64,000 bases of DNA from an uncultured Fibrobacter sp. (GCF_947166265.1 NZ_CAMVDO010000007.1:62001-126000); one strand, 5' to 3'; positions 21,522-32,571 are shown, counted from the stretch's first letter. Numbers and translations are program-made. Notes: generated from the letters alone by a model not told the origin.

Positions 21522-21836
21522 TTACATCTTTTTCACAGGTGATTTTGCGTAAACACGGATTTGTAAAAGAACTGTTTTTCCCGTCTTGACGATTGCCGTC
21601 AAACGGTGTTGTCCGTTCCAGAGCCGACCGGTATCAAAAACTTCGATGGGCGGGTTTGGCGACCATTCGCCCGATTGAATCTTTTCGCAAAACCTGACAA
21701 CATGCTCTTCCGAAATTCGACGATTGTGCGGATTGTCCGAAAGCCACCGCAACGCCATTTCGGGTGTCACGGTGACGGTATCGGATGAAAGCCTTTTAAG
21801 TGTGCTCTTTACTTTATTTTCAATTTCTTGCGCCAT
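21522..21836 (-). CDS. ParB/Srx-like small protein
   Basis: A 104-residue protein with a ParB/sulfiredoxin-like core: NRRISEEHVVRFCEKI, then a strand, then LWNGQHRLTAIVKTGK, the GQHRL being the typical nucleotide-binding loop of the fold. It lacks a helix-turn-helix, so it is not a complete partition protein. ATG 21836 is preferred over the TTG at 21863; either overlaps the upstream gene (28 or 55 bases), showing co-translation. ParB-like fragments of this kind are common in phage- or plasmid-derived islands. Confidence 0.6.
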   Translation of the reverse strand: MAQEIENKVKSTLKRLSSDTVTVTPEMALRWLSDNPHNRRISEEHVVRFCEKIQSGEWSPNPPIEVFDTGRLWNGQHRLTAIVKTGKTVLLQIRVYAKSPVKKM

Positions 21837-22756
21837 TTTTCTTCGGCGGTCTTGGTCAAGCAATCATTTTTCATGTCGCTGCAAGGGACCGGGTAATATA
21901 CATAGCCGTTCTCGTCTTTTTCACTGTGGTCAAAATCGGATAGGCTTTTAATTTTGTTCCCTTTTTTATCGAGGAGGAAAACATCGTCTGAATCGCCTGA
22001 GTAACGAAGATAGTCGGAATACTCGATGTCACCACCCCAATCTTCCATTTCGTAAACGCTTCTAAAATAAGAGGGAATTTTATAAGCATTATCTGCACAA
22101 CAATCTAATTCGGAACCCGTTTCCAGTATTTTCTTTACAGGAACTATTAGGAAGTCATTGTCATAAACAAGAACACGCGATGTGTCGATTTCGCAGTTGT
22201 TCCCATATTCGTCAACATGGTTGACAAAAGCGCAATCTCGCGGATCCCATTCTTCATCGGTTAACTCTCTATACCGTTCTGCGGTTTCGTTAAAGTCTAT
22301 GCAATGCCAGAATTTTCCGTCTTTTGCTTTGCCCCTGCCGATTCCCAAATCGGCTACGTCTTCGGCTTCCCAATATATATCGAATTCAAGACCGTCTGCG
22401 GCCATCTTTTCAAATATTTTGATAGGCAGATTCCAGGCTGTTTGAAAATTTAGGTCTCCGCACAAAATGTCGTGCAAGGCAAGTCCGTCTCCGTAATCCA
22501 TGGCATCGGTTTTAGTACCCCAATTTTCTATACGCCACTCGTACCAGCCCTCGTTACTGCTGTTCTTTTTCGCCGTCGATTTTTTCTCCACAGAAGCAGT
22601 TTTCTTGGCAGAAGACTTGGCGGCCTTTTCTTTTTCGTAATCAGGTTCGGGGATAACGAGTGACAGCGAAAAATCGCCATTGCCTTCGCCATACAGCTTG
22701 ATGAACTTTTCAATATTCTTCTTGTCCATCGTGATAGTAGTTGTTACTGACATCAT
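21809..22756 (-). CDS. YubB/Api92-like protein with an extra shared C-terminal domain
   Basis: A 315-residue protein. Residues 1-170 form a YubB/Api92-like region (WYEWRIENWGTKTDAMD), interrupted by a Lys/Ala/Ser-rich linker at about 45-70. The C-terminal part (about 185-310) has a DEYGNNCEID..DFLIVPVKKI..VFLLDKKGNKIKSLSDFDHS pattern that recurs in the DUF285 protein encoded just upstream, so the two share an unnamed domain. GGAGG stands eight bases before ATG 22756 (the ATG at 22771 is not used). No signal peptide, probably cytoplasmic. Confidence 0.65.
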   Translation of the reverse strand: MMSVTTTITMDKKNIEKFIKLYGEGNGDFSLSLVIPEPDYEKEKAAKSSAKKTASVEKKSTAKKNSSNEGWYEWRIENWGTKTDAMDYGDGLALHDILCGDLNFQTAWNLPIKIFEKMAADGLEFDIYWEAEDVADLGIGRGKAKDGKFWHCIDFNETAERYRELTDEEWDPRDCAFVNHVDEYGNNCEIDTSRVLVYDNDFLIVPVKKILETGSELDCCADNAYKIPSYFRSVYEMEDWGGDIEYSDYLRYSGDSDDVFLLDKKGNKIKSLSDFDHSEKDENGYVYYPVPCSDMKNDCLTKTAEEKWRKKLKIK

Positions 22757-22777
22757 AAAATAATCCTCCAAACAAAA

Positions 22778-23193
22778 CTATATTAACATGTTCTTGGTGT
22801 AATCGGGTACATATTCCCCACCAAAAAAATCTTCTTTCGGCTTATACCATTTAGGGATTTTGCCCATTTTTTCTAGAGCAGAATCCATGAAGGCATCCTC
22901 CATGTCCGTCCCATCGGACACCTTCCACTTGTTTAGGTCTCCAGTGAACTGAGATCCAGAAAACATGCCCCACATATTGGTCACCTTGGATACATTCCAT
23001 TTGCTGATATCACCATTAAATTGAGAATTTTCGAACATACGGGACATGTCAGCAACTCTCGATACATCCCATTGACTGATATCACCGGCGAATTGTGAAA
23101 GATCCTCATCAGAAAACAAATCACTCATATCTGTAATTTTAGATACATCGATGAAATTCAAGTCACAATTTGTACCATTCTGTTTTATGGCTG
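22778..23193 (-). pseudogene. Out-of-frame 3' part of the DUF285 repeat gene
   Basis: This stretch encodes three more DUF285-type repeats (GDISQWDVS, GDISKWNVS, GDLNKWKVS) but is in a different frame from the gene above. One extra A, or a one-base slip, in an A6 tract at about 23201-23206 would join them: the main frame reads KDDLRKKF-stop, while the shifted frame reads KKILAAIKQNG then the conserved NCDLNFIDVS. The joined protein would be about 620 residues. Whether this is mutation, phase variation or base-calling error cannot be told. Confidence 0.75.
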
Positions 23194-24645
23194 CTAAAAT
23201 TTTTTCCTTAAATCATCTTTATTTTTTGCAACAACCATTTTTTGTTCAGTGGTCTTTTTAACTACAGTCCCCTTTGGGGATTCTTCAGCTTTTTGAGATT
23301 TAGAGTACTTCTTATAGGCATTTTTCTTAAGGTGATATTTCCCTTCGTCGTCTTCAATCAAGTCATCTTCAGGGAATGCACAATAGTTTTTGAACTTGGA
23401 ATGATCAAAGTCCTTCAATACTTTTAGGGGCTTGTCGTTTTTGTCGAAAAGAGGAATTTGATTGCCATTCCCGTCATCAAGAAAAAGATAGTCGTTGCCG
23501 TAAGCCGATTCATTGAACTTGAACCCTTTTTTCAGAACGAGAGCCTTGAGGTAAGGAGGGTTCTTGTAAATGGTAGATTGCCAATAGCCAACACCCTCAT
23601 CATCTTCGTCTATCATATCTGCTACAGGCAAAATCTTAAAGTCAACATTGTCGCCAAGAACCTGGACAGTCGGATAGTTATACATTTCTATTAGGCATTC
23701 CTGTCCATATTCATCCGTAAAGGGATAGGTCTCGCAGCCAAAGCCATCTTCGTCTTCTTCGAGTTCTTCAATGCATTCTTCCACGATTTTATAACCATCA
23801 AATTTGGGCTTTTTAGCAGATACAGGCTTCGCAGTCTTTGTAGCTTTTTTAGGTTTTGCAGCATCTTCACTCTCGGAATTTTCTCCATACCACTTTGGTG
23901 GATTATCAGCCAAGGGAGAACCGTCAAACATGCCAAAATCCAAAGTCAACTTAGACGTATCCCACTTGCAAATATCGCCTTTAAAACGAGAATTAGAAAA
24001 CATACAGAACATATTTGTAACGTTGGACACATTCCACTTGCTGATATTTCCATTAAATTGCGAATCACTAAACATGCTCTGCATATTTACAACATTCGAA
24101 ACATTCCACTTACTGACATCTCGTGTGAATCGCGAATTCTGGAACATCATAACCATGTTCTTTACTTTAGATACATTCCATTGACTTATATCGCCATTAA
24201 ATTGAGAATCAGCGAACATGTTTTGCATATTTGTAACATTTGACACATCCCAATGGCTTATATCGCCATTAAATTGGGAATCAGTGAACATGTAGGACAT
24301 ATTTGTCACATTCGACACATCCCATTTGCTTATATCACCATTAAACGGAGAACCATAGAACAAGCCGTCCATATTCGTAACTTGAGTAACATCAATGAAA
24401 TTCAAATCACAATCTTCACCATTCGTTTTAATGGTGTCTTTTATCAACTTTTTTAAATCATCTATATCTTTCACGACAACCATATTGGCGTTAGCCTTTG
24501 CTAGCTTAGCGGTAGTTGGCTTTTTAGCAGACTTTGTTGCAAATTTCTTGGCTACAGCCTTTGACGGCTTGGTAGCTACAGGCTTCTTTGATGCAGGCTT
24601 TTTGGCTACAGTTTTCTTAGTTGCAGTTTTCTTTGTCTTTGCCAT
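23194..24645 (-). CDS. DUF285 (BspA-like) repeat protein with histone H1-like N-terminal tail, frameshifted
   Basis: A 483-residue protein. Residues 1-50 are a basic Lys/Ala/Thr tail (KKPASKKP type) resembling histone H1 or AlgP tails, with no signal peptide. Six 24-residue DUF285 repeats (FNGDISKWDVSNVTNMSYMF type) follow at about 85-250. Then comes a region shared with the YubB-like protein downstream (EYGQECLIE..DFKILPV..YLFLDDGNGN), and a KVLKDFDHS motif. It ends prematurely at an A6 tract (see the adjoining pseudogene part). DUF285 proteins are usually surface proteins; the lack of an export signal and the basic tail suggest a cytoplasmic, perhaps DNA-associated, version. Confidence 0.75.
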   Translation of the reverse strand: MAKTKKTATKKTVAKKPASKKPVATKPSKAVAKKFATKSAKKPTTAKLAKANANMVVVKDIDDLKKLIKDTIKTNGEDCDLNFIDVTQVTNMDGLFYGSPFNGDISKWDVSNVTNMSYMFTDSQFNGDISHWDVSNVTNMQNMFADSQFNGDISQWNVSKVKNMVMMFQNSRFTRDVSKWNVSNVVNMQSMFSDSQFNGNISKWNVSNVTNMFCMFSNSRFKGDICKWDTSKLTLDFGMFDGSPLADNPPKWYGENSESEDAAKPKKATKTAKPVSAKKPKFDGYKIVEECIEELEEDEDGFGCETYPFTDEYGQECLIEMYNYPTVQVLGDNVDFKILPVADMIDEDDEGVGYWQSTIYKNPPYLKALVLKKGFKFNESAYGNDYLFLDDGNGNQIPLFDKNDKPLKVLKDFDHSKFKNYCAFPEDDLIEDDEGKYHLKKNAYKKYSKSQKAEESPKGTVVKKTTEQKMVVAKNKDDLRKKF

Positions 24646-24728: not shown

Positions 24729-25049
24729 TTAAAGCAATGGGTTTGAATCATCATCCGAATCTTCGCCAGAAGATTCTCCTCCATCACTTGAACCACCCTT
24801 CACTCTGCCGATGATATCGATAATGTGGAGTATAGCCAGGAGACCGCATATGGAACATATTGCTATGTTGACGGAATCCATCGTGAAACTGATTGCATAA
24901 TAAATGCCCAAAGCAGCGGCGATGATCAACCCGACAAACGGAAGTGTCAATATCCATGCTATGACAAATGGAACGAAAAGAAGAAGCTTGTCCAAATTAG
25001 ATGGAGCATGGATGTGTTCGGAAAGCCAACTATGAATCGCCCTAATCAT
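24729..25049 (-). CDS. Small two-helix membrane protein, copy 1
   Basis: A 106-residue membrane protein: short N-terminal amphipathic region, two or three transmembrane helices (FVPFVIAWILTLPFVGLI; IAICSICGLLAILHIIDII), and an acidic Gly/Ser/Asp tail ending SNPLL. GAGG lies eight bases before the ATG at 25049. It is nearly identical over its membrane part to the gene at 26388-26669. Function unknown; the acidic tail is the only variable part. Confidence 0.6.
   Translation of the reverse strand: MIRAIHSWLSEHIHAPSNLDKLLLFVPFVIAWILTLPFVGLIIAAALGIYYAISFTMDSVNIAICSICGLLAILHIIDIIGRVKGGSSDGGESSGEDSDDDSNPLL
24806..24986. repeat. Duplicated segment, copy 1 (181 bases identical)
   Basis: Identical base for base to 26426-26606, an offset of exactly 1620. 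The flanks diverge gradually, indicating a recent duplication or gene conversion within the membrane-protein gene. Confidence 0.9.
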
Positions 25050-25127
25050 TTTTTACCTCGTTATGATAATGAAATAGTTTATAGCCTAGCTCAAATGGTT
25101 GCATACAGTTGTATGGGCTGTTGTACA

Positions 25128-25290: not shown

Positions 25291-26313
25291 TTAGGAAATC
25301 TTCCCGCCTAAGCGCCTAAGCTCCATCTGCCTAAGTTTATCAAGTTCCCACCGCCTACAAGATTTCCTACATTCGCAATGCGAAAGAGAAACACAAAGCA
25401 ATGGCACTACTGTCAGAATTACACTGAGTATAGAAAAAGGAACTACGAAAGTTTCTGTAAAAAAAATGTTTGCCAAAAATGCCAAGCAGGCGGGACCAAG
25501 TATGCCGCCAGCCGCAATCGCTGCAGCAAAATCAGATAGAAACTCATAATAATTGTCAAGCGTCGCACATATAATTACACCAATGCCTGATATTAGACCT
25601 AATGTCAGGCCGGTGGAATTGTCGGGCAAGAGATAACAATATGCTACTATTGACAAAAGTGTAAATAGGATTCCTATAAAAATATTAATAAGACGTCCTT
25701 TATTTTGTTCTTTATCTTTTTGTTCCAGACTTTCTCTTTTTTCTTGTTCTTTTTTTATTAGAGTTTGTTCACTGATGCAGCGGATGGAATTCGCTTTTTT
25801 GCCTAAGGTGCTTTTGGGAATAACGCGTGAATCTTCCATTAAACGAAAAACTTCATTATCTCCTGCTTTTGTAGAACTCCAAAACATGGTTAGTTTACCT
25901 ATGCCATAATAGTCTCCACTAGAATCTCTAGAGCCTGCAGGCAATGCTGAAAAACCAAAAGTATCCCATCCACCCCACCACTCTTCAGCACCTAAGACCA
26001 TTCTCACAGTATACTCCTTACCACGTAAGGAGGAACTCATGTAGTACTTTTGAGCTTCGACAAAAGATGCAAGTTCTTCCCACTCTTCACTAGTTGGCAG
26101 AAACCAACCTGGTGGACAGGCTTCCTTTGCAGCCTTCCATGTGTATAGCCTACCATATTTTTTTTCATTCGATTCATCGTTGTCATATGCGTAGCTTCCG
26201 CCGTTTTTAGTGCGGAATCTCAAGTTCTCGGCCATCCAAATCTGGTCGCCAATCTTGCATGTCTTATAAACCTCGCCATCTCGCGGGTCGGTAAAAGTAC
26301 CTATAACAGCCAT
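25291..26313 (-). CDS. FISUMP-domain protein with C-terminal membrane region
   Basis: A 340-residue protein. Residues about 8-190 are a FISUMP (Fib_succ_major, TIGR02145) domain: DGEVYKTCKIGDQIWMAENL, then YGRLYTWKAAKEACPPGWFLP, then FSALPAG and WSSTKA. A charged linker and three or four transmembrane helices (about 218-325) follow, with a Cys-rich basic tail. Most FISUMP proteins are secreted; this one has no N-terminal signal, so the domain would face the cytoplasm unless a membrane helix exports it. It supports a Fibrobacter origin. Confidence 0.8.
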   Translation of the reverse strand: MAVIGTFTDPRDGEVYKTCKIGDQIWMAENLRFRTKNGGSYAYDNDESNEKKYGRLYTWKAAKEACPPGWFLPTSEEWEELASFVEAQKYYMSSSLRGKEYTVRMVLGAEEWWGGWDTFGFSALPAGSRDSSGDYYGIGKLTMFWSSTKAGDNEVFRLMEDSRVIPKSTLGKKANSIRCISEQTLIKKEQEKRESLEQKDKEQNKGRLINIFIGILFTLLSIVAYCYLLPDNSTGLTLGLISGIGVIICATLDNYYEFLSDFAAAIAAGGILGPACLAFLANIFFTETFVVPFSILSVILTVVPLLCVSLSHCECRKSCRRWELDKLRQMELRRLGGKIS

Positions 26314-26387: not shown

Positions 26388-26669
26388 CTAGGCATCATCG
26401 CCGCCGCTTGAACCGCCCTTTACCATGCCGATGATATCGATAATGTGGAGTATAGCCAGGAGACCGCATATGGAACATATTGCTATGTTGACGGAATCCA
26501 TCGTGAAACTGATTGCATAATAAATGCCCAAAGCAGCGGCGATGATCAACCCGACAAACGGAAGTGTCAATATCCATGCTATGACAAATGGAACGAAAAG
26601 AAGAAGTTTGTCCAAATTGGTAGGAACGTGGATGTGTTCGGAAAGCCAACCATGAATTGCTCTAATCAT
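26388..26669 (-). CDS. Small two-helix membrane protein, copy 2, truncated tail
   Basis: A 93-residue near-duplicate of the protein at 24729-25049. The start is at 26669, preceded by ACGAGG. It stops at a TAG (26388-26390) after GGDDA. The following in-frame codons still read DDGLDDESNPLL then TAA, matching the tail of copy 1, so the TAG is a recent nonsense change that removes the acidic tail. Confidence 0.6.
   Translation of the reverse strand: MIRAIHGWLSEHIHVPTNLDKLLLFVPFVIAWILTLPFVGLIIAAALGIYYAISFTMDSVNIAICSICGLLAILHIIDIIGMVKGGSSGGDDA
26426..26606. repeat. Duplicated segment, copy 2 (181 bases identical)
   Basis: Partner of 24806-24986. The spacer upstream of the two membrane genes is also related in both places (GTATGGGC.GTT.TACAAC). 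Confidence 0.9.
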
Positions 26670-26751
26670 TTTTACCTCGTTAATTATAAACTGGTCCGGT
26701 TTATGTGTTGCTGCTGTATGGGCCGTTATACAACTGCAAGTTTTTTGTTTT

Positions 26752-28203
26752 TTACAATTTCGTTTTCGCCTTTGCTTCCTCGACCACAACACGGTTCATG
26801 TGCGATGCGGCACAGAAATGCTTTGCCACCTTGGTGTAGTCTCCGCCACTTTCGTTAAAATTGCGGACAAGGCATGGCGAACAATACTGACGATCTTCAC
26901 AATCGTAGCACTGCGGGATTGCAGACTTTGTCAATTTGCGTAACTTATTCAGTTGCGGAGACTTTTCCCAGATGTCCTTAATCGGTTGTTCACGGACATT
27001 GCCGCAAGGCATTCCCTGCCAACCGCTACACGGATAAACAATTCCGTTTGCCGCGATACACATCTTATCAAGGCCAACACCACAAAAAGCTTGTTTTCCC
27101 CATTCTTCACGGGACGGCTGCGGAACAGGAGTTTCCTTAACACGCTTAATGTAATCCTGGTCAAACTTGACTATATCCTTCAACAATTCTTCCGTTTCAG
27201 CTATGGTCAGGCGTTCAGTAAGATTGTCCGAGGAAAAATCAAAACGAGCCATCATCACAAAGTCTGTTTGAGCCTTGCAATTACGCTCATGAGCATATTC
27301 CAAAACCTTCTTATAAGATTTGAAATTAGTATGCATCACTGGGCAACTGATTTGCACAGGAATATTCGCAGCAATCAAAGCTTCGATAGAAGCCTTTGTC
27401 TTTTCACAACTCCCCTTAAGCTGCGTAATGTGGTCATGTTCTTCGGGATAAACACTGTACAAGGATGTTTGCACAAGTCCAGGATTAATCTCTTTTAACA
27501 CATCTATCATATGCGGAGTCAGCAATGTAATATTGGACAATATGGTTACCGAAAAATCCAATTCACGGGCCCTACGCAAAATTCTTTCAGCATCCGGATG
27601 ACAGAAAAATTCTCCACCTGAAAGTGTCAAATCCAGGGTACCCGCTTCATGGAGCTGTTCCATCACGTTTGCCAACAACTCGTATGGCATACGGTCATTC
27701 TTGAGTTCGTGGGGAATGTAGCAATGGATGCACCGTTCATTACAATGGTTGTTTACCTCAATCTGACAATCATGAATGGCAGGTTTCTTTAAGTATTCGT
27801 CAAACAGATATTCTTGAGAATCCCTATATTTTTTGTTATCATCGGGGTTCTGCATAGCGTTATAGGTAAACGACGTCTTAGGATTTTCAGCGTAACTGAA
27901 GTAGGTATCCTTAGAAGCACATTCTTCTGCAGTCTTACCAGAAACTAGGTAACTATCTGCCACCAAGGAATCCATAATTTCCTTGAAATCATCTTGAATA
28001 TCCTGCGGAGTTGCCCCATCAAATTGGGAACAAGCTTTGGATACAAGAGAATCAAGGCTTTGCGGCTCACGGGTAAGCGTATTCAAGAAAATACGACCGG
28101 AATCAGTGTAAGTGCGGTCATGTTTCGTGAGTTGGCTATAGATATAGCCAAATTCTCCGATAGAACGGACAAATGAATCGCGTGAAAGACGGTAGTAAGG
28201 CAT
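26752..28203 (-). CDS. Radical SAM/SPASM peptide maturase with PqqD-like N-terminal domain
   Basis: A 483-residue radical SAM enzyme. The N-terminal 100 residues look like a PqqD-type peptide-recognition domain. The cluster motif CNERCIHC places cysteines at 154, 158 and 161, with LSGGEFF after it. The C-terminal SPASM region has the expected cysteines (CGVG, MCIAANG, YPCSG, CYDCEDRQYCSPC) for two auxiliary clusters. Such enzymes install thioether or other cross-links in ribosomal peptides. It lies two bases after the 117-aa gene, downstream of a small Cys-containing peptide gene, in one minus-strand operon. The PqqD-like assignment is by position and pattern only. Confidence 0.85.
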   Translation of the reverse strand: MPYYRLSRDSFVRSIGEFGYIYSQLTKHDRTYTDSGRIFLNTLTREPQSLDSLVSKACSQFDGATPQDIQDDFKEIMDSLVADSYLVSGKTAEECASKDTYFSYAENPKTSFTYNAMQNPDDNKKYRDSQEYLFDEYLKKPAIHDCQIEVNNHCNERCIHCYIPHELKNDRMPYELLANVMEQLHEAGTLDLTLSGGEFFCHPDAERILRRARELDFSVTILSNITLLTPHMIDVLKEINPGLVQTSLYSVYPEEHDHITQLKGSCEKTKASIEALIAANIPVQISCPVMHTNFKSYKKVLEYAHERNCKAQTDFVMMARFDFSSDNLTERLTIAETEELLKDIVKFDQDYIKRVKETPVPQPSREEWGKQAFCGVGLDKMCIAANGIVYPCSGWQGMPCGNVREQPIKDIWEKSPQLNKLRKLTKSAIPQCYDCEDRQYCSPCLVRNFNESGGDYTKVAKHFCAASHMNRVVVEEAKAKTKL

Positions 28204-28205
28204 GA

Positions 28206-28559
28206 TCAGACCTTGATGTATTTTTTGTACGCTTGAAGTTTGCTGTTGAACAATTTGTCTATTTTTTTCAAAATAACATCTGTATCTATATCAGTACCTT
28301 GTTCCTTTGTCCTGTATTCGTCTACAAGTTGTTTAAAATCATCCCCTAAAACGTAAATTTTGTCCAAAAGAGCATCCCTACGTTCTTCATAATTGTCTAG
28401 TTTTCCATTGCTTATTCTTCCTACTTCCATGCACTCTATAAAACATGCTTGTAAAAATTGTATTTTAACAGTTGTTCGTGCAATCCAAATTGTTATAACA
28501 ATGGCGATGATTGATAATACGAGAGAACATATTCCGATAACAAAGGAAGCGATTTCCAT
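28206..28559 (-). CDS. Single-pass membrane protein of RiPP cluster (117 aa)
   Basis: A 117-residue protein with one N-terminal transmembrane helix (SFVIGICSLVLSIIAIVITI) and a charged, helical cytoplasmic tail. AGGAG lies ten bases upstream of ATG 28559. It sits between the unknown 99-aa gene and the radical SAM gene with tiny gaps. It could be an anchor or immunity protein; nothing in the sequence decides. Confidence 0.6.
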   Translation of the reverse strand: MEIASFVIGICSLVLSIIAIVITIWIARTTVKIQFLQACFIECMEVGRISNGKLDNYEERRDALLDKIYVLGDDFKQLVDEYRTKEQGTDIDTDVILKKIDKLFNSKLQAYKKYIKV

Positions 28560-28571
28560 TATTTTATTCTC

Positions 28572-28871
28572 CTAGTAATAGGTTTTCATGTATTCTTTAA
28601 TTTCTTTCAACTTACTTGTTGCTTGCGATTGCTTTTGATCATTATTAAAATCAGCATACCAAGCCTTGTGCAGAATAAAGTAGTCTTCAATCAAATCATA
28701 CAAAGTTTTATCTTTACCTTTAATCTGTTGCAACATCTCATTGGGAGAAACCCATGATTCGTCTGTTGTTAATTCAATTCTCTGATATATCGCTATCACA
28801 AAATTCTGAAAATAACTTTCAGGAGCAATCAGTGCCTTCATCACATCAACATCTTGAAAATTAATAGACAT
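28572..28871 (-). CDS. Hypothetical protein of RiPP cluster (99 aa)
   Basis: An unrecognised 99-residue soluble, mostly helical protein rich in Lys, Tyr and Gln, with AAAGGA before ATG 28871. It lies between the precursor-like peptide and the 117-aa membrane protein in the same direction. No metal or catalytic motif was seen. Confidence 0.55.
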   Translation of the reverse strand: MSINFQDVDVMKALIAPESYFQNFVIAIYQRIELTTDESWVSPNEMLQQIKGKDKTLYDLIEDYFILHKAWYADFNNDQKQSQATSKLKEIKEYMKTYY

Positions 28872-28948
28872 TCGTTCAAATCCTTTATTACAAATTCAAA
28901 AAAACGGTAACTGCGGCTATTACACCGCAATCACCATTGTTATTTCTA

Positions 28949-29071
28949 TTAGCGACTCAATTCGCAGGTCGAACAGCCCTTTCCGTTGCGATCTTTGGTC
29001 GGGCAACCAGCAGCGAAGCTACCAGTCGGATTGTTCTTTGCCACGAGCTGCGGCTTTGTGTACTTCTTCAT
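28949..29071 (-). CDS. Candidate RiPP precursor peptide (40 aa)
   Basis: A 40-residue peptide with a precursor layout: a basic, Pro-containing leader (MKKYTKPQLVAKN), a PTGSFAAGCP hinge, and a Cys-rich core with cysteines at 23, 33 and 36 (GC..GKGCSTCELSR). ATG 29071 is preceded by TGAGGT at a good distance; the longer in-frame start at 29143 has no ribosome binding site. A radical SAM/SPASM enzyme with a PqqD-like domain is encoded three genes downstream. The class (sactipeptide, ranthipeptide or other) cannot be told from sequence alone. Confidence 0.65.
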   Translation of the reverse strand: MKKYTKPQLVAKNNPTGSFAAGCPTKDRNGKGCSTCELSR

Positions 29072-29154
29072 AATATACCTCATGAGGTTTATGTTTTTTG
29101 CTCCGTTTTGTTGAATGCACCAACTGGAGCCTTGCTGGCACATTTTTCATAATC

Positions 29155-29331
29155 CTACTTATACCAAGATGGTGGAGTATCTCCCCAACCGAAGTAATTG
29201 ATGTATTTGATATTTGGATATTTTGACCGCAATATTTTTTCAGCTGCAGTCCGGTTTAGGCCGCCCATTTCAATGCAGTCAAGCGCATATCCTGGAACGT
29301 GGTCAATGCAGAAATGAAACCAGTGTTTCAT
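29155..29331 (-). CDS. Small hypothetical protein of RiPP cluster (58 aa)
   Basis: A 58-residue peptide, aromatic-rich (KHWFHFCIDH start, FGWGDTPPSWYK end), with AAGGAG before ATG 29331. It starts three bases after the hydrolase stop. It could be a second substrate or a small accessory protein. No family was recognised. Confidence 0.5.
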   Translation of the reverse strand: MKHWFHFCIDHVPGYALDCIEMGGLNRTAAEKILRSKYPNIKYINYFGWGDTPPSWYK

Positions 29332-29333
29332 GT

Positions 29334-30198
29334 TTAACTCCTTGTTGTATTGTTGAAAAACTTTTGTGCGTTCGACCACGACACGCTACACCATGCACCA
29401 TCAGTGATTTTCTCGCTCATCGTAATGCGGTTCCGCAAGTATCTTGGTAATGAGCTCTTGATATTCCGCCCCGGAATCGGAGTATCCGTTCCAAACAGAA
29501 TCCTATCCGCAAATCCGTTTTGGATAAGAATCTGCAAATGTTCGTGTGGCATAAAGGCTGTATCAACAAAAGCATTTGGGCAATGTCGCAAGACATCAAT
29601 CGTCTGGTTTAGTGGACGACCATGAGCCAAAATGACCTTGACCTTGGGATGCTTCTTGATAACCGGTTCATACATTCCGGCAAAGCACTCGTCTTTCTCA
29701 CCTGTATGAAGCATAAGCGCCAGGTTGCGTTCGTTTGCGACATCAAAAACTCGTGCAAGCGATTTACCATCTAGTTTCCACTTTTCAGAAACTCCGTGAA
29801 CTTTCAACCCCTTGATTTTATCATCAAGATACAGCGACAAGTCGCGCGACTTTCTCAACATGGAATGAGTCACCCACAAGAACGGAACAGCCCTTCCTTC
29901 GGACAACTCATGCATGGCATCGCGTTCCTCCCGCATAAAAGCCGGATCATCCGTCACCACGTTCGATGTGCTAGAATACGCAAAATGGGTAATCCCAGCC
30001 AACCTCAATGTTCGCAGGATTCGTGGGGGCGTATAGTAGTCGTCGAAATACTGCCCCATGTGCACATGCACATCGAACAGGCCGATGGTGGCGTTTTCGC
30101 TAGCAACCTTATTTTGTAAACTAGAATTTACACGGGGGGGGGGGTAACAGGTTTAACGGCTCCCTGAGGTCGGCAGCCGCATTGAATAATGTTTCCAT
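29334..30198 (-). CDS. Amidohydrolase-family TIM-barrel hydrolase, frame interrupted by a G11 tract
   Basis: The main frame (30071 down to 29334) encodes a metal-dependent amidohydrolase: the first-strand HxH (FDVHVHMG), a LKVHG segment, ILAHGRP and LFGTDTP near the end give the usual His/Asp ligands. ATG 30198 opens a frame (METLFNAAADL) that hits a run of 11 C on the coding strand, after which it reads PPPPCKF and stops. With 10 C it would read PPPRVNSSLQ.. directly into TIGLFDVHVH and the full barrel. As written, only internal starts (for example GTG 30071) could give a protein, missing strand one. It is the first gene of the RiPP-like operon. Confidence 0.7.
30134..30144. repeat. Homopolymer G11 tract inside the hydrolase gene
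   Basis: Eleven consecutive G on the plus strand (C on the coding strand). Long G tracts of this kind are classical slippage sites for phase variation; loss of one base restores the gene. Such tracts also cause base-calling errors. Confidence 0.85.
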
Positions 30199-30874: not shown

Positions 30875-31969
30875 TCAAGTGATTCTGTTATTTATCATAA
30901 CAGAATCACAAATTTCTGCGAGCATGCGTTCGTGCGTGCAGACTTCAGGTGATACGCCCTCAATCGTTCCTGTGCTGTAAAAAGAAGTGCAGGCGCATTC
31001 GTGTGCGCAACAGCGGTAGCGTATGTCGCAGCCTTCGCATTCTTTTTTGTCGTTGTCCAGGAACTGTCTAATTTGTTTGCAGGCGTCTTCGTTGAATCCG
31101 GTAAAGACGTTACCTTGTAAGTAAGGCGGGTTCTCGTTCGAGGTAATGAACCTGGTGCACGGGAACATATTGCCATTGGTAGCGACGCCAATGGCTCCGT
31201 TGTATACATGGCAGGAATATTGCCTATACCGTAAATTCGCAAGGTATAACTTTATTTTGTCTTGAATCGTGCCGAGGAACATCTTGTCACCTTTTTCGCG
31301 ACACTCCTTCCAGTACAAGGCCATCTTCTGGTATTGTAGGGCGAGCCTGTCAAAATCTTCGCCGGTCCACTTGCCGTCAAAGTCGACGCTTGTGGTAAGG
31401 CTCCTGAATCCCTGCTCATGCAGCCACTTGACGCTGTCGGCAAGCGTTTCTATGTGGGCTCGCGTCACGGTGCTTAGGGCGACTGCGCCTTGCTTTACGA
31501 ATCGCGGAATGTTCTTTTCGATTTCCTTGAAACTTCCGCAGCCATTTACGGTACGGCGAGCAATGTCGTGGTGGTACTCCGGGCCATCGAGTGAAAGGTA
31601 AATGCGAAAATGCTCGCGTTCGCAAAATTCAAAAAAAGAATCGTCAAAGAGCGTGCCGTTGGTGTTGACGGCAAAGTTGAGCTTGAAGTTGCTTGGCGCT
31701 TCGCCCTTGTCTATGGCCTCAGCAACGAAAGCTTTGGCGATGTTTACGCCCTTAAAAATGGAGTCTTTGCGCAGCAAGGGTTCGCCACCGAAAAAGGTAA
31801 TGTTCAAATAAGTCTGCTTGAAAAACAGGCTGCGCTCTAGCCCCACGCGAATCGCCTGCTCGAGCGTTTTGTCATCCATCACGTTATGGCGTGCGGATTG
31901 CGTGTCCTTGTAATAACAATAGGAACAGCGCAAGTTGCACTGTTCCGTAAGGCATAGAACTAAGTTCAT
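30875..31969 (-). CDS. Radical SAM/SPASM enzyme of rSAM/lipoprotein pair
   Basis: A 364-residue radical SAM enzyme. The start at 31969 gives LCLTEQCNLRCSYCYY with cluster cysteines 11, 15 and 18; the longer frame (32020) only adds residues overlapping the previous gene. FFGGEPLL and the SPASM region (CHVYNGAIGV..FPCTR, CEGCDIRYRCCAHECAC) follow. Its ATG overlaps the lipoprotein stop codon (ATGA), so the pair is translationally coupled. The arrangement fits the NCBI-described rSAM/lipoprotein system (TIGR04133/TIGR04134, from memory); the modification is unknown. Confidence 0.82.
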   Translation of the reverse strand: MNLVLCLTEQCNLRCSYCYYKDTQSARHNVMDDKTLEQAIRVGLERSLFFKQTYLNITFFGGEPLLRKDSIFKGVNIAKAFVAEAIDKGEAPSNFKLNFAVNTNGTLFDDSFFEFCEREHFRIYLSLDGPEYHHDIARRTVNGCGSFKEIEKNIPRFVKQGAVALSTVTRAHIETLADSVKWLHEQGFRSLTTSVDFDGKWTGEDFDRLALQYQKMALYWKECREKGDKMFLGTIQDKIKLYLANLRYRQYSCHVYNGAIGVATNGNMFPCTRFITSNENPPYLQGNVFTGFNEDACKQIRQFLDNDKKECEGCDIRYRCCAHECACTSFYSTGTIEGVSPEVCTHERMLAEICDSVMINNRIT

Positions 31970-32571
31970 CCGGCGATGTCGCTGCGTTCGTAAGTGGAAA
32001 CCATGCTTGCGGCCATGCAACCGTCTTCGTTGTTACACATGTGAACCTGGATGCACCACGGGTCGTTGTCCGGGCATACTTCATGTATATCGACGGACGA
32101 ACTGGAGGGCTGTTCTGCTTCGCTTGAAGAGCTTTCTTCTACAATGGGATCGCCTGCGAGCGGTACCGGTTCTTCAGCGGAGCTGCTTTGTGCTTCCGCT
32201 TCGGAAGAAGAACTGGAGTTCGGACCGTAAATGTCTTCGTCGGTGGGTGCGGCGATGGTACCCGCTTCAGGGGGTGGATACGGTTCTTCAAACGATGAAC
32301 TGCTCAAAGGTTCTGCTGCAGACGACAGCGCTTCAACGGCCGAACTGCTAAGAGCCTCGTGGCTCAGGGGAATATCGACAACGCTTGAACTGCTCGGAGT
32401 TTCGTTTTCGGGAGCCCCAGTTTCAGGATTCTGAGCGGGGGACGCGGCGGTGGCGCTTTCTTCGCAAGCTGTCAATGCGACTGCAGCAATACCGAACGAG
32501 GCTGCAATGGCGCTTTTGGCGGCAATGCTTAGCTTCGCGCTGTTTTTGACGATTTTCTTCTCGATTTTCAT
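31966..32571 (-). CDS. Ser-rich lipoprotein, probable radical SAM substrate
   Basis: A 201-residue lipoprotein: long basic and hydrophobic signal with lipobox LTAC (Cys36), then a low-complexity Ser/Glu/Pro/Ala spacer (about 40-165) typical of surface display in Fibrobacter, and a short C-terminal segment with four Cys (HEVCPDNDPWCIQVHMCNN, then DGCMAASM). AAGGAGGAG before ATG 32571 is the strongest ribosome binding site in the region. The Cys-containing C terminus is the likely target of the co-translated radical SAM enzyme. Confidence 0.75.
   Translation of the reverse strand: MKIEKKIVKNSAKLSIAAKSAIAASFGIAAVALTACEESATAASPAQNPETGAPENETPSSSSVVDIPLSHEALSSSAVEALSSAAEPLSSSSFEEPYPPPEAGTIAAPTDEDIYGPNSSSSSEAEAQSSSAEEPVPLAGDPIVEESSSSEAEQPSSSSVDIHEVCPDNDPWCIQVHMCNNEDGCMAASMVSTYERSDIAG

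Follow-up and report, generated by a model that had tools for sequence, protein, structure and literature searches.

The locus described here lies in a 64,000-nucleotide stretch of DNA from a gut bacterium, an uncultured Fibrobacter sp. (GCF_947166265.1 NZ_CAMVDO010000007.1:62001-126000), which is referred to below as the window. A run of open reading frames (ORFs) on the minus strand encodes, in order of transcription, an amidohydrolase (Amidohydro_2), a 58-aa peptide, a 40-aa peptide, a 99-aa protein, a 117-aa protein, and a 483-aa enzyme with PqqD, radical SAM, and SPASM regions (Table 1). An initial annotation had proposed that these genes form a candidate new cluster for a ribosomally synthesized and post-translationally modified peptide (RiPP), with the 40-aa peptide as a precursor. 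All of the ORFs were recovered where it had placed them, and its interpretation was supported in part: a conserved precursor with a conserved leader was found beside a maturase that carries a RiPP recognition element (RRE)-like region and radical S-adenosylmethionine (rSAM) and SPASM domains. The sequence comparisons presented below strongly support an rSAM-type RiPP cluster whose precursor family has no name.

The 40-aa peptide, MKKYTKPQLVAKNNPTGSFAAGCPTKDRNGKGCSTCELSR, contains cysteines at positions 23, 33, and 36 and was divided into a leader, MKKYTKPQLVAKNNPTGSFAAG, and a core, CPTKDRNGKGCSTCELSR. The maturase and the precursor were searched for in 80 Fibrobacter genomes. The maturase was detected in 11 of these genomes. 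The precursor profile gave 12 strong matches, comprising all 11 maturase genomes and one genome (G024) with no maturase beside the precursor; precursor and maturase therefore co-occurred in 11/11 genomes (Fisher p = 1.1e-12). Further profile matches in genomes G053, G078, and G146 (E ~0.002-0.009) look like chance similarities and were rejected. Across the Fibrobacteraceae 20 precursor loci were identified, three of them in the same genome from a sister genus and one in the cultured strain F. intestinalis ATCC 43854. The initial annotation had named a precursor missing from homologous loci as evidence against its proposal; the precursor was present in these 20 loci, and it lies upstream of the maturase wherever one contig carries both. 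In a 20-codon segment of the leader, 1499 synonymous and 125 nonsynonymous single-base codon differences were counted over all pairs, which are not independent of each other; 23% synonymous differences are expected without selection. The leader is under strong purifying selection, and the Cys-containing 40-aa peptide noticed initially is a conserved, selected gene. Short ORFs are frequent in the precursor region of the window, which would suit a small ORF that arose by chance next to a radical SAM gene with no relation to it. The profile matches, the co-occurrence with the maturase, and the synonymous excess in the leader demonstrate that the 40-aa ORF is not a chance one; with 20 loci in a constant position and under strong purifying selection, this explanation is refuted and its probability is negligible.

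The leader is near-invariant (Y-[KTQ]-KP-x-[LM]-[IV]-AKN-x-P-x-GS[FY]-xx-GCP). The core beyond it is hypervariable in sequence and in length, with a spacing of 8-15 residues between the first and second cysteines. The pattern C-x(8-15)-C-x2-C-[DE] was present in 19/19 intact Fibrobacteraceae copies, with Glu as the acidic residue in 15 and Asp in 4; the twentieth copy (G071) has a frameshift within the core. The second cysteine (Cys2) and the invariant acidic residue occupy positions i and i+4. A fixed leader followed by a tail that differs almost everywhere is as expected for a peptide family that serves bacteria as weapons or signals. The initial annotation was unable to name the precursor pattern; no family model names it either, and a text search of the available papers gave no mention of the motif.

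The Pfam domains Radical_SAM (1.7e-20) and SPASM (7.7e-12) were both detected above cut-off in the maturase, and the cysteines of the radical SAM cluster motif CNERCIHC are invariant among the maturases. The N-terminal PqqD match in the window protein (E 0.008, 16.9 bits) is below the PF05402 cut-off of 23.4 bits, which an orthologue on an E. coli plasmid passes with 25.4 bits. The N-terminus of the maturase family was also aligned with a PqqD protein by hhalign at 73% probability. The domain assignment made initially (PqqD, radical SAM, and SPASM) therefore stands. None of the NCBIfam family cut-offs was reached. The best match was NirJ2 (112 bits vs 500); the sactipeptide families AlbA, SkfB, and StsB scored 70.5, 62, and 57 bits against cut-offs of 850, 300, and 625, respectively, and the PapB family scored 43.7 bits against 340, which leaves the enzyme outside the PapB/SCIFF maturase family. 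RumMC was not among the best 25 NCBIfam matches. The best relative of solved structure is SkfB (6efn, E 2.4e-11).

The maturase profile also touches PqqE, NirJ, and heme-synthase models. Together with the PqqD domain and three cysteines that could bind metal, this would suit a cofactor made from a peptide, or a small molecule that binds metal, as in pyrroloquinoline quinone (PQQ) or mycofactocin biosynthesis. In cofactor precursors the modified residues and their surroundings stay fixed, whereas the core found here is hypervariable, and no cofactor-dependent enzyme is conserved nearby. We consider a cofactor very improbable.

The window enzyme groups with those of genera g11 and g6, apart from its own genus, in a tree built from 14 maturases. 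The maturases of its own genus are 83-95% identical to one another; the window maturase is only 72-74% identical to these. Because it branches outside its own genus, the window locus was probably acquired by horizontal transfer. Decayed copies were also observed, with a stop within the maturase gene in genome G125 and a split maturase frame in G140. No orthologue was found in viral contigs and phages.

Table 1. Features of the precursor-maturase locus, with positions counted from the first nucleotide of the window.
Feature	Position	Strand	Remarks
Maturase, 483 aa	26752..28203	-	PqqD/RRE-like ~34-90, radical SAM 149-302, SPASM 374-436
117-aa protein, one N-terminal transmembrane helix	28206..28559	-	Cassette gene, candidate immunity protein
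99-aa all-helical protein	28572..28871	-	Cassette gene, candidate immunity or accessory protein
Precursor peptide, 40 aa	28949..29071	-	GAGGT Shine-Dalgarno directly 5' of ATG; homologues in 20 loci
Amidohydro_2 (PF04909) protein	29334..30098	-	Pfam 2.4e-15; metal ligands HxH, H, H, D

The initial annotation listed the amidohydrolase but did not comment on it. This protein proved to be a near-constant partner of the maturase, although its position in the relatives is downstream of that gene. Orthologues were detected in 13/17 maturase genomes and in 1/94 other Fibrobacteraceae genomes (p 1e-12). They lie directly or nearly directly 3' of the maturase in the rSAM loci of relatives, with the exception of locus L072 and the window; the downstream proteins in L062, L064, and L068 are very divergent (26-27% identity). 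The window protein scores 57.5 bits against a PF04909 cut-off of 26.4, and its HxH, H, H, and D residues are invariant in the alignment. The window is a rearranged exception to the gene order of the relatives, with the amidohydrolase gene upstream and paired with that of the 58-aa peptide. The same pair occurs in genome G050 without precursor or maturase, and the window copy is therefore probably derived from such a pair. Its frame is open from a GTG at 30071, and homology continues to ~30098 and beyond. A tract of 11 C at ~30130-30146, near the 5' end of the gene, interrupts the frame by comparison with the intact relative L140, so this copy may be inactive through decay, phase-variable, or affected by a homopolymer assembly error.

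The 58-aa aromatic peptide had been counted as part of the cluster. It is not a conserved member and belongs to a different gene set. A role as second precursor was rejected, its relatives being located in G046, G018, and G050, all without precursor and maturase. An array of repeat-rich DISKWDVSNVTNM proteins with a IEKFIKLYGEGNGDFSLSLVIPEP protein was observed at 21809-24645 of the window, and similar arrays (L138, L140) stand beside relatives of the 58-aa peptide in G046 and G050; this part of the window looks like a variable multi-gene region.

Between precursor and maturase, one to three genes were found in Fibrobacter, g6, and g11. The inserted families include two of ~95-aa helical proteins, a zinc ribbon, membrane proteins, a protein with an FRG domain (E 3e-16), a second rSAM enzyme, and unique proteins. 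The only relatives of the 99-aa protein are encoded in the corresponding slot at three further precursor loci; its AlphaFold model (predicted local distance difference test score, pLDDT, 79) shows five helices and gave no Foldseek match below E 0.001 in the PDB. In F. intestinalis, a gene adjoining that of the maturase encodes a relative of the 117-aa protein (E 1e-23, obtained with a small search set). Loci L061 and L067 have maturases that are 95% identical, with unrelated cores and unrelated inserted genes; L066 and L067 have both core and inserted genes in common. In four loci a second rSAM gene stands beside the first; these loci are not monophyletic in the maturase tree. The core end C[LM]NCERT[KE] was found in 3/3 of these loci with an intact precursor and in 0/16 others (p 0.001 in a post hoc test). 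On this evidence, the core and its neighbouring genes tend to change in concert.

Pherotype systems, too, typically combine a fixed leader with a variable core and with linked partner genes that vary. The product could be a modified signalling peptide, with the core as strain-specific signal and the inserted proteins as receptors or regulators. An XRE-type regulator adjoins the precursor in L079, L068, and F. intestinalis, and several inserted genes encode helical or membrane proteins. The slot contains no histidine kinase or recognisable receptor, however, and its proteins are from unrelated families, the zinc ribbon and the FRG-domain protein among them; no exporter was recognised. Signalling is, in our assessment, unlikely.

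Conjugative plasmids from E. coli, Salmonella, and Photobacterium were found to carry a full-length maturase with 35% identity. A precursor, MSYSKPTVLAKSSTYMAQCRPNSKPSGRPCNPPGPSGR, is encoded directly upstream of the maturase and is unannotated in these records (L090, 8812-8928; L091, 8804-8920; L092, 2782-2898). The E. coli and Photobacterium precursor genes have 17 codon differences, all of them synonymous, and encode 100% identical proteins; the plasmid precursor is strongly selected. No amidohydrolase is annotated near the plasmid locus. No match to this locus was obtained in a set of complete E. coli genomes, although five records in the plasmid collection are from E. coli.

These plasmid relatives adjoin resolvase genes. 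With the FRG domain of one inserted protein and the lack of a recognised exporter, their setting would fit an intracellular toxin, addiction, or defence module, in which the peptide targets invaders or acts within the producer, with antitoxins or effectors encoded by the inserted genes. On the other side, the maturases drew only generic viperin/radical SAM matches from PADLOC, and those inserted genes that were tested drew none; on the plasmids the maturase is the sole partner gene, and the core diversifies. Such a module is improbable. The alternatives thus rank with signalling first, an intracellular toxin or defence function second, and a cofactor third.

With somewhat better than even confidence, we propose a new family of rSAM RiPPs, probably thioether-forming, with exchangeable cassettes of core and immunity-like genes and a product that is most likely bacteriocin-like. 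The leader motif Y-x-KP-x-L-x-AKN would be held by the N-terminal PqqD/RRE domain of the maturase, which would then form one or more thioethers from cysteine. It has been shown that PapB joins Cys to Asp or Glu by a thioether in CX3D/E motifs (PMC9413430). C-x2-C-[DE] has the same spacing, and the best guess, by this analogy, is a link from Cys2 to the Asp or Glu at i+4. The link would close a small ring at the end of the variable-length loop, and the loop may determine the target. The metal-dependent amidohydrolase would trim or otherwise process the modified peptide, and matching self-protection would come from the small helical or membrane proteins that are exchanged. The product would be a strain-specific antibacterial peptide, its core and immunity module being swapped between the conserved leader and the maturase. 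An accessory, antagonistic trait is suggested by the patchy distribution, the decayed copies, and the probable horizontal acquisition of the window locus. A more specific version is advanced tentatively, as possible but short of even odds: core and cognate immunity genes, sometimes with a core-specific second rSAM enzyme, would be exchanged as a block between fixed leader and maturase, yielding lineage-specific antibacterial peptides with a new amidohydrolase step.

Several observations weigh against this proposal. In the sister genus g4 the precursor-maturase gap is 67-74 nucleotides and holds no inserted genes, so that immunity there must be located elsewhere or be nonexistent. The window and F. 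intestinalis have the 99-aa and 117-aa genes in common, in diverged form, with different cores; the pairing of core and cassette is therefore not strict, and a strict core-immunity pairing was not upheld. No orphan immunity homologues were found in genomes of non-producers, and neither an exporter nor a leader peptidase was recognised among the shared genes. The plasmid core, AQCRPNSKPSGRPCNPPGPSGR, lacks an acidic residue and hence a Cys-x3-Asp/Glu motif; a Cys-Asp/Glu linkage therefore cannot cover the whole maturase family, and the linkage on the plasmids may be different from that in the Fibrobacteraceae. Finally, the AlphaFold model of the maturase is poor (pLDDT 54).

Other features were observed close to the locus. 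Directly downstream of the maturase, a small membrane-protein gene is present in two copies with 94% identity (24787-25069 and 26407-26689), which flank a gene at 25291..26313 that we take to be Fibrobacter 'major paralogous domain'-like. A second radical SAM system is located at 30875..32571 on the minus strand. Its PapB-like enzyme (211.7 bits, cut-off 340) is encoded by a gene that overlaps the end of a gene for a lipoprotein-like, Ser-rich 201-aa protein, the C-terminal tail of which, VCPDNDPWCIQVHMCNNEDGCMAASMVSTYERSDIAG, has two Cys-x3-Asp motifs. Relatives of this enzyme (L094-L123) were found in 64/111 Fibrobacteraceae genomes, with a maximum of four in one genome; the adjacent tails share the conserved end C-x-(D/N)...SMV[ST]T[YF]E..D. 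This system may serve to introduce thioethers into a lipoprotein tail.

A 2014 survey of anaerobes reported no RiPP cluster of its classes in Fibrobacteres, of which one genome was covered (PMC4289311). The precursor and maturase families described here are named by no family model and by none of the papers searched, and come from a phylum that was blank in that survey. About 20 natural cores on one leader, with maturases up to 95% identical, offer a test of the tolerance of radical SAM maturases, and could show whether core and immunity evolve jointly. The plasmid relatives represent a RiPP precursor that is selected yet unannotated on conjugative plasmids of E. coli and Salmonella, and it is tractable in laboratory E. 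coli.

Several known systems resemble the cluster in part. A Macrococcoides plasmid (L093, 4418-6996) carries genes for PqqD, two radical SAM proteins, a 40-aa KKPTIIVKP...AQCSGSSS peptide, and an ATP-binding cassette (ABC) transporter, and is probably another uncharacterised RiPP cluster. Its leader KKPTIIVKP resembles YxKPxLxAK, its cysteine is in the C-terminal part of the peptide, and PqqD is present as a separate protein (PF05402, E 6e-14). It differs in its two separate rSAM genes (29% identity over the rSAM part), its ABC transporter, and the lack of an annotated amidohydrolase nearby. In bottromycin biosynthesis the metal-dependent amidohydrolase PurAH/BotAH is encoded in the RiPP cluster and cuts off the follower peptide (PMC10885120). 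The likeness lies in the presence of a metal-dependent amidohydrolase within a RiPP cluster; the Fibrobacter protein belongs to PF04909 (Amidohydro_2) and its cluster is rSAM-based.

The initial annotation had called the system sactipeptide- or ranthipeptide-like. This fits the general layout, and the cluster may work like such systems; neither enzyme nor precursor reaches a model of these families, and class membership is putative, the scores being below the curated maturase cut-offs. With the ranthipeptides (PapA/PapB, freyrasin; SCIFF) it shares the invariant Cys-x3-[DE] spacing and the combination of RRE and rSAM/SPASM. The PapB substrate has six motifs, compared with one invariant motif here, the maturase score is 44 bits vs 340, and the plasmid relatives of this family do not have the acidic residue. 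As in the AlbA and SkfB sactipeptide clusters, a PqqD-like region is combined with radical SAM and SPASM domains, and a small Cys-rich precursor adjoins the enzyme; matches to the AlbA, SkfB, and StsB models are weak (57-70 bits vs cut-offs of 300-850). Unlike the precursors of those systems, the Fibrobacter core is short, has a single fixed C-x2-C-[DE] end, and shows no hairpin made up of Cys donors and acceptors distant from them. The cluster also differs from them in its amidohydrolase partner and its exchangeable inserted genes, a cassette architecture that is unusual within the known kind of rSAM RiPP.

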